Assembly: GCA_001917665.1 (NCBI GenBank)
Contig: MNEL01000042.1
Location: forward strand, 16,495-80,494
Reading direction: 5' to 3'
Length of the DNA: 64,000 nucleotides
Source of the DNA: Gemmatimonadetes bacterium 13_1_40CM_69_22
GTDB lineage: Bacteria > Gemmatimonadota > Gemmatimonadetes > Gemmatimonadales > GWC2-71-9
Notes under the pieces: model-generated
Database searches by the model: none
Seen by the model: only the letters and a program-made list of their open reading frames with translations
What the model was told of the DNA's origin: nothing
Part shown: in pieces, positions 3,705 through 64,000 of the stretch
How positions within the stretch are numbered: the stretch's first letter is position 1
Layout: the number at the start of each line of letters is the position of its first letter
Program-made: the position numbers and the translations under genes

Positions 3705-4465
3705 TCCGCCACCCAATGCAGGATCTCTCCCTTGCCCAGCTCGGCGAGGTCGCCCGAATGACGCTCGTACCGCCCGGCGATGTGCCGGTCCTCGACGGCG
3801 AGTCCGTAGCGGGCGCGCAGGTAGCGCAGCAGGACGGGGACGTGCGGTGGCTGGTACGTGCAGGCGTACCGGAACGTCGCCGGGCACTCGATGGCCCCGA
3901 GCGCCACGATCGACCCGCGCTTGAGGAAGCGGCCCGCGCCCGCTGCCGTGCTGCCGAACACCACCACTGTACCGGCGATCATTGCCCTCCCCGTTCGCGG
4001 TCCCGCATTCCCCGTCACCACGATGAGCCCGCGCCGTGCCCCGGCGCCCGCCCGCGCGCCTGCGTCGCCTCGAATGACGATCTCTCCGCCCGCCATCCCG
4101 CGGGACGCCCCCGGGCGCGCGCCCCCCGCATTCTCGCCGGCGCTTCCGTGCACGTCGATCCGGCCGCCCTCCATGGCGAGGCCGAGGTCAGGCCCGACGT
4201 TGCCGGCGATGAGCATTTCGCCTCCGGCCATCCCGGTGCCCACACCCTCGACCCGCTCCAGGTCGCCTTCGATCCGCAGGGACGTGGAGCGCTCGCCCGT
4301 CACGGTGAAAAAGTCGCCCAAGCGCGCGCGCCGCCCGCCGTGTAGCACGGGCAGCTCCCCGATGGCGCGCGCATCGAGCGACGCAAATCGGTCGGCGACG
4401 ATGCAATCCGCGACGAGCGTGTGCGCAGGCGCGGTGGCGAGCGTCAGCACGACGGTGTCGCTCAT
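3701..4465 (-). CDS. fhcC: formyltransferase/hydrolase complex subunit C
   Basis: A 254-aa FhcC/FmdC-like subunit made largely of a right-handed parallel beta-helix with glycine-rich turns: GMAGGEMLIAGNVG, MEGGRIDVHGSAG, GMAGGEIVIRGDAG, RRGLIVVTGNAGPRTGRAMIAG, then RFLKRGSIVALG. The family shares its GXGXG repeat domain with glutamate synthase. In methylotrophs FhcC is a scaffold subunit of the Fhc complex, which transfers the formyl group from formyl-H4MPT to methanofuran and releases formate. The last third (TYQPPHVPVLLRYLRARYG) is the family's C-terminal tail. Its stop overlaps mch and its start overlaps fhcD, both by 4 nt. Confidence 0.94.
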   Translation of the reverse strand: MSDTVVLTLATAPAHTLVADCIVADRFASLDARAIGELPVLHGGRRARLGDFFTVTGERSTSLRIEGDLERVEGVGTGMAGGEMLIAGNVGPDLGLAMEGGRIDVHGSAGENAGGARPGASRGMAGGEIVIRGDAGARAGAGARRGLIVVTGNAGPRTGRAMIAGTVVVFGSTAAGAGRFLKRGSIVALGAIECPATFRYACTYQPPHVPVLLRYLRARYGLAVEDRHIAGRYERHSGDLAELGKGEILHWVAE

Positions 4466-60759: not shown

Positions 60760-61554
60760 GTGCCCCTGAATTTTCGCACCTATCACGACCTGACTGAACC
60801 GGACCGTTCCGGGCTGGCCGAGCAGATCGGCGCGCAGCGGCGCCGGGTCGCCGAGCGTCTGGCGGTTGTGGCCCGGGTCGTGGCGGTCATGAGCGGCAAG
60901 GGGGGGGTGGGTAAGAGCTTCGTAACGGCCCACCTCGCCCGGGCCCTGGCCCGGATGGGGGGCGCGGTGGGCGTGCTCGACGCGGACCTGAACGGCCCGA
61001 CCGTCCCCCAATTGCTCCGCGTCCCCGTTGCCAGTTGCACGTTGCACGACGGCGTCGTCGAGCCTGCCGTGAGCCCGGAGGGGGTCCGCTGCTTCTCGAT
61101 GGGCCTGCTCATCGAGGACGGCCGCCCGCTGGCGTTCCGCGGCCCGGCCGCGGAGAGCTTCGTGTGGCGAGGAGCGCTCGAGGCCACGGCGTTGCGCGAG
61201 CTCCTCGCGGACGTGGCGTGGGGCCCGTTGGACGTCCTGCTCGTCGATCTACCGCCCGGGATGCAGCGATTCACCGAGCTCGCGGAGCTCTTGCCCGAGC
61301 CTCCACCCGTTGTCGCCATCACCATTCCGACCCCGGAGTCCGAGGATGCCGTGCGCCGTGCCTTGCACGCCGCGCGCGACCGTGGCGCACCCTGCCTCGG
61401 CGTCATCGAGAACATGGCCGGCGGGCCGTTCGTGGGCGACGCGGGCGACACGCTGGCGCGGGAGTTCGCAATCCCGCTGCTCGCCCGGCTCCCATTTCAT
61501 CCCAGCGCTCACGAATGGGACAGGATCGCACACAGGGTCGGGGGGTCGGCGTGA
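60760..61554 (+). CDS. Mrp/NBP35-like P-loop ATPase
   Basis: A 264-aa ParA/MinD-superfamily ATPase of Mrp type. Deviant Walker A VVAVMSGKGGVGKSFVTAHLARALA; switch region VLDADLNGPTVPQLLRV; Walker B-like DVLLVDLPPGMQRFTELAELLP; ENMAGGPF. Typical Mrp proteins carry a CxxC near the ENM segment for Fe-S binding; here it is absent (GVIENMAGGPFVGDAGD). A role in cluster handling is therefore uncertain. It heads a tight operon with a PCP_red protein and a ferredoxin. GTG 60760 has no clear Shine-Dalgarno. Confidence 0.85.
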   Translation: MPLNFRTYHDLTEPDRSGLAEQIGAQRRRVAERLAVVARVVAVMSGKGGVGKSFVTAHLARALARMGGAVGVLDADLNGPTVPQLLRVPVASCTLHDGVVEPAVSPEGVRCFSMGLLIEDGRPLAFRGPAAESFVWRGALEATALRELLADVAWGPLDVLLVDLPPGMQRFTELAELLPEPPPVVAITIPTPESEDAVRRALHAARDRGAPCLGVIENMAGGPFVGDAGDTLAREFAIPLLARLPFHPSAHEWDRIAHRVGGSA

Positions 61555-61556
61555 GA

Positions 61557-61588
61557 CATTCCGCATTCCGCACTCCGCATTCCGCACT
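61557..61588 (+). repeat. heptamer repeat (cattccg) in place of a ribosome-binding site
   Basis: cattccg-cattccg-cactccg-cattccg occupies the whole gap between the mrp stop and the ATG at 61589. No Shine-Dalgarno sequence remains in it. Confidence 0.7.
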
Positions 61589-62035
61589 ATGAAGTTCCTC
61601 TGCGTCGAGTGCGACCGCCAAATGGCGTTCGAGGAGCGGCAGCTCCCGGGCGACGGCACCCTCGCCGCGGCGTTCCGCTGCCCGCAGTGCGGACGGGTGG
61701 TCGCGATGCTGACGAACCCGATGGAAACCCAGCTCGTCGCGTCGCTCGGCGTGAAGATCGGGGGAGCGACGGTTTCGCCCCAGCCACTGGAAACGATCCG
61801 CGCGGCGGTCGCGACGGGGAAGGACGACGCCTTCGTTGAGGACGGGAAACGGGAAACGGGAGACGCGCCTGCGTGGTCGGCCGAGGCCCAGGAGCGCCTG
61901 GCCCGGGTTCCGGGGTTCGTGCGAGGAATGGTCAAGCGGATCTACGCAGACTACGCGCGGGATCACGGCGTGGCCGAGATCACACCGGCCGTCATGGACA
62001 CGGCGCGGAGCGAGCTGGGACTTGAGGGGATGTGA
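61589..62035 (+). CDS. zinc-ribbon protein with PCP_red domain
   Basis: A 148-aa protein. N-terminal zinc-ribbon/rubredoxin-like motif with two CxxC pairs (MKFLCVECDRQMAF, AFRCPQCGRVV). A repeat-derived linker (EDGKRETGDAP) follows, then a C-terminal PCP_red domain (WSAEAQERLARVPGFVRGMVKRIYADYARDHGVAEITPAVMDTARSELG), the small helical module found at the end of the BchB/ChlB protochlorophyllide reductase subunit. No photosynthesis genes are in view. The start ATG follows a heptamer run with no ribosome-binding site. Function unknown. Confidence 0.85.
   Translation: MKFLCVECDRQMAFEERQLPGDGTLAAAFRCPQCGRVVAMLTNPMETQLVASLGVKIGGATVSPQPLETIRAAVATGKDDAFVEDGKRETGDAPAWSAEAQERLARVPGFVRGMVKRIYADYARDHGVAEITPAVMDTARSELGLEGM
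61846..61870. repeat. heptamer repeat (acgggaa) in PCP_red gene linker
   Basis: acgggaa-acgggaa-acgggag is translated as part of the linker EDGKRETGD between the zinc ribbon and the PCP_red domain. Confidence 0.7.
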
Positions 62036-62283
62036 GCGGCCAGCGGGAGCGGATCGTCCATGGCCTGCGGGTCGTCATCGATCGCGACCAGTGTGTGGGG
62101 TTCGGGGACTGCGTGAGGGAGGCACCCGAAGGTTTCGAACTGGACGACGCGACCGTGGCGGTGTTCGCGAACCCGGAGGCAGTGGAGCGTGAGCGGTTGC
62201 TGCGCGCGTGCGACGCGTGCCCGGTGGATGCGATCACCGTGTACGACGAAACGGGCAAACAAATCGTCCCTCGCCCGGCTTGA
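62032..62283 (+). CDS. small ferredoxin, probably 3Fe-4S type
   Basis: An 83-aa ferredoxin (GTG start overlapping the upstream stop). The cluster motif is CVGFGDCVREAPEGF with a distal ACDACPVDAITV. The second Cys of the usual CxxCxxC is replaced (CVGFGDC), so three Cys remain as in actinobacterial 3Fe-4S or modified 4Fe-4S ferredoxins that partner P450s or other oxidoreductases. It is a likely one-electron donor or acceptor for the neighbouring PCP_red proteins, but that link is inference. Confidence 0.88.
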   Translation: MSGQRERIVHGLRVVIDRDQCVGFGDCVREAPEGFELDDATVAVFANPEAVERERLLRACDACPVDAITVYDETGKQIVPRPA

Positions 62284-62308
62284 CAGCCCCCGGAGCGGGT
62301 CGCATACT
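62280..62308 (+). promoter_or_regulatory. sigma-70-like promoter for the USP/PCP_red gene
   Basis: TTGACA (62280-62285), 17 nt, CATACT (62303-62308, 4 of 6 to TATAAT). The -35 overlaps the ferredoxin stop. It would start a transcript with about a 150-nt leader. Confidence 0.6.
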
Positions 62309-62340
62309 CGCCGCACGCTGCACTGACACTTGAGTTTCCT

Positions 62341-62443
62341 GGCGGGCGCCGCCCGTCGTGACGTCGGACATACACTCACGCCTCGACGCAGATCGATACC
62401 GACCCGTCGGTTCGCACCGGGTCCGGCGCGAGGGGAGTGTATG
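62341..62443 (+). ncRNA. structured 5' leader of the USP/PCP_red gene
   Basis: A first hairpin GGCGGGC-GCC-GCCCGTC (62341-62357) is followed by a large stem: CATACACTC (62369-62377) pairs with GAGTGTATG (62435-62443), enclosing a second stem GACCCG...CGGGTC and possible CCTCG/CGAGG pairs. The start codon lies 30 nt further on. I infer a cis-regulatory RNA. No known riboswitch is recognised. Confidence 0.5.
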
Positions 62444-62472
62444 CCCGGCCCGTGCCCCCAAGGGAGGTGCCG

Positions 62473-64000
62473 GTGTACCGCGAGATCTTCGTCCCCGTCG
62501 ACAACTCCCGGCATTCGGACTGGGCTGTTGACCGGGCGATCGAGCTGTGCCGGAGGGCCGGCGGTCGCATCACCGGCAATCACGTCTACGCCGCGCGCCT
62601 GCACGACGTCCGCTTCCGGCAACTCGAAACCGGGCTCCCCGCTCAGTTTCAGACCCCCGAGGAGATCAAGAAGCAGCGCAAAATCCACGACAAGCTGATC
62701 GAAAAAGGCTTGCAGCTGATAGCTGACAGCTTTTTGGACCAGCTCGGCAAGCGGTGTGACGCGGCGGGCGTCGGCTTGACTCGCCAGCTCCTGGAAGGCA
62801 TCAACTACGAGGAAATCGTGAACGAGGTGAACCGCGGCGCCGGCCGGCTGCCGGGGCTCATCGGCTTCGACCCCAACCGCGCCGCGGGCTACGACGGTGG
62901 GGAGCGGGTGCGCAGCGATGTAAAAGTCGCGGCGAACGGCCGGCTCGTCGCGGAGGAGGAGGATGCCGCCGCCCGGCTCGTCGGCTCGTCGGGACGCCGC
63001 TACGACCTCCTCGCCATCGGCGCACACGGCCTCGGCCGCCAGCCCTACTCGCAGCTGGGCGGAGTGGTCGCCCGCGTGCTGCGCGGCGTCGAGAAGGACG
63101 TGCTCATCGTGCGCGACGACCGGCCCTTCGACGGCGGCCGCTTCCTGGTGTGCGTCGACGGCTCGTCGTACGGGTACCGAGCGATGCGCGTCGCGCTCGA
63201 GCTGGCGCACGCGTTCGGCGGGTCGCTGTACGTGTGCAGCGCGTTCGACGTGGAGTACCACCACGTCGTGTTCCACAACATCAAGGATGTGCTCTCCTAC
63301 CAGGCCTCGAAGGTCTTCAAGTTCGAGGAGCAGGAGGAGCTGCACAACAACATCATCGACAAAGGACTCCTGAAGCTGTGTCAGGCGAACCTGAAGCGCG
63401 CCGAGGTGATGGCGCGGGAGTTTGCCGACGTTTCGATCACGACCCAGATCCTCATCGGCAAGCCGTTTCAGGTGATCATGCAGTGGGCCGAGGAGATCAA
63501 GCCGTCGCTGCTGGTGCTCGCCCGCCATGGTGCACACCGAATCGAAGGCACCCAGATCGGCAGCCAGGCGGAAAACCTGTTGCGGCTTGCGCCCTGCGAC
63601 GTGCTGCTGGCGGGGACGGTGGGAATCCGCCCCGAGGACATCCCCTGGATCGAGGAAGACGGTGTGGCCGGGCTCCCCTGGGCGCCCGAGGCCGAGGTGC
63701 GGATCCTCCGCGTCCCACCGTTCGCGCAGGGGATCGCGCGCCGGGCCGTCGAAGAGTACGTGCTCGAGCAGACGCACGGCGAGCCGGCGACGGTCACGAA
63801 CAAGTGGCTCGACGAGGCGATCCGGAAGCTCCTCCCCACGCATATGCAGCTCATCATGGGCATCGGCACGGCGGAGGAGCTCGCGCTCGCCGAGGTGAAG
63901 GCGCAGGAGCAGCTGAAGGCGACGAAGGTCCTAGGGCACGACGCCGACCCCCAGCCCCTGACCCCTGACGTCGAGGTCCGGTGTCCGGTGACCGGAGCAG
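62473..64000 (+). CDS. double universal-stress-protein with C-terminal PCP_red domain (3' end cut by window)
   Basis: This gene is not in the ORF track because it has no stop before the window ends. I translated it from GTG 62473, with AGGGAGG 5 nt upstream. The first USP domain begins YREIFVPVDNSRHSDWAVDRAIELCRRAGG and ends DLLAIGAHGLGRQPYSQLGGVVARVLRGV (the G-x2-G-x9-G-S/T-type loop is loose). The second begins FLVCVDGSSYGYRAMRVALELAHAFGG and ends LVLARHGAHRIEGTQIGSQAENLLRLAPCDVLLA. A C-terminal PCP_red module follows (VRILRVPPFAQGIARRAVEEYVLEQTHGEPATVTNKWLDEAIRKLL). The fusion is unusual. At least 509 codons are visible. Confidence 0.8.
   Translation, partial: MYREIFVPVDNSRHSDWAVDRAIELCRRAGGRITGNHVYAARLHDVRFRQLETGLPAQFQTPEEIKKQRKIHDKLIEKGLQLIADSFLDQLGKRCDAAGVGLTRQLLEGINYEEIVNEVNRGAGRLPGLIGFDPNRAAGYDGGERVRSDVKVAANGRLVAEEEDAAARLVGSSGRRYDLLAIGAHGLGRQPYSQLGGVVARVLRGVEKDVLIVRDDRPFDGGRFLVCVDGSSYGYRAMRVALELAHAFGGSLYVCSAFDVEYHHVVFHNIKDVLSYQASKVFKFEEQEELHNNIIDKGLLKLCQANLKRAEVMAREFADVSITTQILIGKPFQVIMQWAEEIKPSLLVLARHGAHRIEGTQIGSQAENLLRLAPCDVLLAGTVGIRPEDIPWIEEDGVAGLPWAPEAEVRILRVPPFAQGIARRAVEEYVLEQTHGEPATVTNKWLDEAIRKLLPTHMQLIMGIGTAEELALAEVKAQEQLKATKVLGHDADPQPLTPDVEVRCPVTGA

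Follow-up and report, generated by a model that had tools for sequence, protein, structure and literature searches.

Does the DNA between a promoter and the USP/PCP_red gene of this Gemmatimonadota contig encode a structured RNA, and what would such an RNA serve? The original prediction, made on the 64,000-nt stretch of DNA analysed here (the window), was of a long paired leader that might be a new cis-regulatory RNA. The locus is laid out as follows (window positions).

62032..62283, plus strand: upstream ferredoxin-like gene (Fer4_13)
62280..62308, plus strand: sigma-70-like promoter TTGACA-N17-CATACT (TTGACA 62280-62285, CATACT 62303-62308)
62315..62339, plus strand: stretch from the putative transcript 5′ end (-10 plus 6 nt) to H1
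62340..62358, plus strand: front hairpin H1, TGGCGGGC-GCC-GCCCGTCG; pairs kept with G-C/C-G swaps
62363..62368, plus strand: P1 5′ strand GTCGGA (partner 62444-62449; one A-C position)
62369..62377, plus strand: P2 5′ strand CATACACTC; last two pairs vary on both sides between species
62381..62385, plus strand: P3 5′ strand CCTCG (partner CGAGG 62429-62433); position poorly conserved
62399..62426, plus strand: inner hairpin P4, CCGACCCG..CGGGTCCGG; sequence conserved, with an invariant A (ACCG) just before
62435..62443, plus strand: P2 3′ strand GAGTGTATG, partner of CATACACTC
62444..62449, plus strand: P1 3′ strand CCCGGC (partner 62363-62368)
62462..62467, plus strand: Shine-Dalgarno site GGGAGG, conserved in homologues
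62473..64000, plus strand: USP/PCP_red gene, first of the operon (Pfam Usp, 4e-34); runs off the contig

A two-part leader between promoter and start codon

The leader has two parts, H1 (62340-62358) and then a long P1/P2 stem that encloses P4 (62363-62449). H1 begins about 25 nt downstream of the promoter, which is the single sigma-70-like match on either strand within 61500-63500 and so bears out the good -35/-10 pair that had been predicted. The pairing reaches 62449, 23 nt before a GTG start at 62473 that is backed by the conserved protein beginning VYREIFVPVD; P2 itself stops 29 nt short of the GTG, close to the 30 nt originally given. The 75-nt end-to-end pairing of CATACACTC with GAGTGTATG, the enclosed CCTCG/CGAGG and the further hairpin in front are all present as predicted. 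For the enclosed GACCCG/CGGGTC (62401-62406 and 62418-62423, within P4 strands 62399-62406 and 62418-62426) the letters are in place but the pair is not formed in the minimum-energy fold of the window; the consensus and the fold of the closest relative both have it.

Folding energy, which had been proposed as a check, gives a divided answer. The P1–P4 domain (62368-62445) is more stable than its shuffles (z -3.35; 1 of 200 as good), but the leader as a whole (a 181-nt region) is ordinary (z -0.60; 57 of 200 as good), and the element at 62330-62450 lies modestly beyond chance (z -2.20). Energy alone would therefore not have carried the claim, and it is the comparative evidence that decides.

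Covariation and constraint across ten species

Homologues of the USP/PCP_red protein were found in near genomes and gave 80 loci on contigs of named genomes, almost all of them Gemmatimonadota; seven of the loci carry the full element (the window, L032, L037, L040, L044, L058 and L061). A covariance model (R1) run on 288 genomes of the order and 394 of the class added L115, L118 and L122, making ten leaders. Among the 288 genomes the element occurs in ten, at one place each, all in the family of the window and spread over five genera; among the 394 genomes of the class there was none in any other family. Weaker second matches in two genomes are the same site on the opposite strand. A dispersed repeat or MITE was considered and rejected on the single significant site per genome.

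All ten copies stand at the head of an operon, in a fixed place after its promoter and ahead of its start codon. H1 follows the putative 5′ end after 24-27 nt in all ten, and P1 lies 23-36 nt from the start codon in the nine readable leaders (L115 stops at the contig edge). The TTGACA/CATACT promoter is common to the ten leaders and to leaderless homologues, and a TTGACA promoter precedes the gene in most closer homologues.

The original prediction had named covariation in homologous leaders as a check and its absence as counter-evidence; H1 and P1/P2 do covary across the ten species. In six species P2 is CATACACTC/GAGTGTATG, with GAGTGCATG as the variant in three of them; in the L040 group it is CATACACCA/TGGTGTATG, with two neighbouring pairs altered on both sides. 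H1 shows G-C/C-G swaps with 96% of cells paired, and in L122 the P3 region is a GCCTCTC/GAGAGGC helix. In initial MAFFT alignments either H1 or, for the L040 group, the P2 arm was wrongly placed, so an N-padded alignment (A7) replaced them. We compared the leaders with a null model in which changes are relocated independently while the tree and the count of changes in each column stay fixed (2000 simulations). In an alignment whose H1 and core were adjusted manually to match the structure, a step that favours it, the fraction of paired cells is 0.91 against 0.75 (sd 0.03) under this null, and the covariation score is 394 against 106 (sd 36), with no simulation as high. H1 and P1/P2 each reject independent columns on both measures (p<0.0005); P4 covariation is not significant across the ten species. 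H1, P1, P2 and P4 also emerge when RNAalifold folds an unedited MAFFT alignment, with a covariation term of about 0.

Between the window and its closest relative, L032, 2 of 110 element sites differ, both unpaired in the consensus, against 54 of 268 fourfold-degenerate sites in the USP gene (Fisher p 3.6e-7); 9 of 17 promoter-spacer sites differ. The L061/L118 and L040/L058 pairs agree with the contrast between element and fourfold sites. The element is thus constrained and, on these comparisons, is under purifying selection.

No family of Rfam 15 reached its gathering threshold on the leader, and up to an E-value of 10 there were chance matches alone, in line with the prediction that no known riboswitch would match; literature searches returned nothing on the motif. 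Judged from sequence comparison, the leader is a real, conserved structure that is so far undescribed.

Distribution and the operon behind the leader

The claim of a new cis-regulatory RNA is favoured by the covariation, the purifying selection and the lack of an Rfam match, but close relatives that share the operon and its promoter lack the leader. Almost no leader precedes the gene in L033-L036, L039 and L050, and in species with an 86-94% identical USP protein the promoter lies directly before the ribosome site. On a tree whose inner branches are partly weak, the leader is scattered through one clade, a pattern best read as a single origin followed by several losses. Such losses within the clade would mean that the leader is dispensable.

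Further leader types exist before the same gene. L043 (3910-4003) retains H1 and lacks the P1–P4 domain, so the two domains are separable in evolution. L041, L042, L045, L049 and L063 have a different, nearly invariant leader (about 3920-4003; TTAACTCTGACGGCATCCACACCGACATCTAGAGT) in which CCACACC complements GGTAGTGG at the ribosome site; this leader has no pair that varies on both sides, and a z-score of about 0. In L046, on a contig labelled Rokuibacteriota, the leader contains an inverted repeat that is long and almost perfect (about 3870-3925; AGTTCGCGCACCAATCG..CGATTGGTGCGCGAACT). Four loci labelled as Gammaproteobacteria MAGs (L080, L081, L083 and L087) have the gene with a length and an identity (68%) equal to those in the Gemmatimonadota MAGs L082, L085 and L089; these are likely to be mislabelled or mis-binned records.

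The leader had been assigned to the USP/PCP_red gene, which it does precede, but it is better described as belonging to a respiratory operon of several genes. Where the contigs of relatives reach further, the stress-protein gene USP/PCP_red stands ahead of genes for a radical SAM/SPASM/PCP_red protein, a cytochrome bd subunit I-like protein and cytochromes c; in the leaderless relative L146 the operon adds an EB_dh-type cytochrome, COX2 and COX1. In NCBIfam the radical SAM protein is closest to the haem b synthase AhbD (7.5e-87), with NirJ2 next (1.7e-84); both matches fall under the curated cut-offs. Upstream in the window lie genes for an Mrp-like ATPase, a PCP_red protein and the ferredoxin. 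The PCP_red domain recurs across the cluster, in the PCP_red protein (61589-62032), the USP fusion (62473-64000) and the radical SAM fusion.

In genome G098 the promoter and leader are kept before a 17-codon remnant that is followed by the radical SAM gene, the second gene of the operon; USP is on another contig, behind a ferredoxin and without a leader. The leader thus travels with the operon promoter and not with the USP gene. The 17-codon remnant ORF in L122 (820-875; MKRDNLVPAHPTPRARD) aligns with the USP start and occupies the spot that the USP gene vacated.

How the leader may act

Several specific mechanisms were examined and not adopted. A terminator or attenuator lacks a U-run after the stem, and an attenuator with a leader peptide lacks an ORF shared across the leaders, the 12-codon TTG ORF of L061 not being shared. 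The GTGTATG motif offers an in-frame start in eight of the nine readable leaders, where its GTG and ATG span two of the three frames; a start there would extend the protein by 12-15 residues, but the added residues lack conservation, and the ribosome site comes only downstream of them. Sequestration of the ribosome site by the 5′ end is striking by eye in the window and L118, but reached p<0.05 in a shuffle test in one of nine leaders. Since there is no terminator, shared leader peptide or significant pairing to the ribosome site, and given its position, the element would most likely act on translation initiation or mRNA stability.

We favour, with a probability of about 0.6, a cis-acting structured 5′ leader on the mRNA of a respiratory and haem operon in one Gemmatimonadota family. 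Transcription would start near 62315; the RNA would fold into H1 and then the long P1/P2 stem with its inner hairpin P4, leaving about 23 nt with the Shine-Dalgarno site before the first gene. Acting as plus-strand RNA, the element would tune expression of the operon after transcription has started, perhaps by binding a metabolite or protein linked to respiration, haem or oxygen. A bolder version, in which it is a ligand- or redox-sensing RNA of a new class in this family that controls a haem/cytochrome oxidase operon in response to, for example, haem, oxygen state or an iron–sulphur protein, we regard as doubtful.

The strongest competitor, tentative but worth keeping in view, is a constitutive 5′ stabiliser or processing hairpin, whose stems would do no sensing and would simply shield the mRNA against decay or mark where an RNase cuts. 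The 5′ UTR of E. coli ompA has a stabilising stem-loop of this kind, with hairpins near the 5′ end of the mRNA. The leader shares that location, its hairpins are simple and it is dispensable in sister species. Unlike the ompA stem-loop, it has about 25 nt ahead of its first hairpin and conserved stem letters. CATACAC/GTGTATG and ACCG are nearly fixed while loops and promoter spacer vary, which a mere stabiliser would not need.

It is unlikely that the element works instead as DNA, an inverted repeat within the transcribed leader that provides two half-sites for a dimeric regulator or forms a cruciform, although strand preference does not discriminate overall. Plus-strand counts over the stems are 18 G-U to 22 A-C cells, favouring neither strand, the minus strand roughly equals or exceeds the plus strand in folding across the ten sequences, conservation extends to the arm letters, and the promoter alone points to the plus strand. 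P2/P4 favour the minus strand (1 to 12), but H1 favours the plus strand (8 G-U and no A-C cells). From arm to arm the distance ranges over 65-80 nt with no helical phasing, and a DNA repeat leaves the inner hairpin and the fixed promoter distance unexplained.

The minus-strand folding would also suit a small RNA that is produced at this site, perhaps from the minus strand, and acts in trans or as antisense. This is very improbable because no minus-strand promoter-like site was found near the element, no terminator follows it and it is always joined to the operon. Least probable of all is that the element has no function, being either a GC-rich stretch that pairs by chance or an insertion in decay: patchy presence and the ordinary whole-leader z-score would fit, but selection, both-sided pair changes and a single copy at the same position largely contradict it.

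We class the cis-acting leader as a candidate orphan cis-regulatory leader RNA of narrow distribution with a putative regulatory role. Orphan leader motifs from comparative genomics (for example, PMC2864571 and PMC11109978) are likewise structured, covarying and attached to one operon, whereas this one is limited to one uncultured Gemmatimonadota family and has no Rfam 15 match. Like translational-control riboswitches, it stands just ahead of the ribosome site of a metabolic operon; unlike them, it has no Rfam match, multi-way junction or shuffle-significant alternative pairing to the ribosome site.

The finding adds a comparatively supported leader RNA candidate from a soil phylum that is largely uncultured; the candidate is linked to an operon for a haem-type radical SAM enzyme and parts of a terminal oxidase. 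Should the leader sense haem or oxygen, it would join a rare class of RNA sensors; if it stays an orphan motif, it still offers a testable model with ten homologues.
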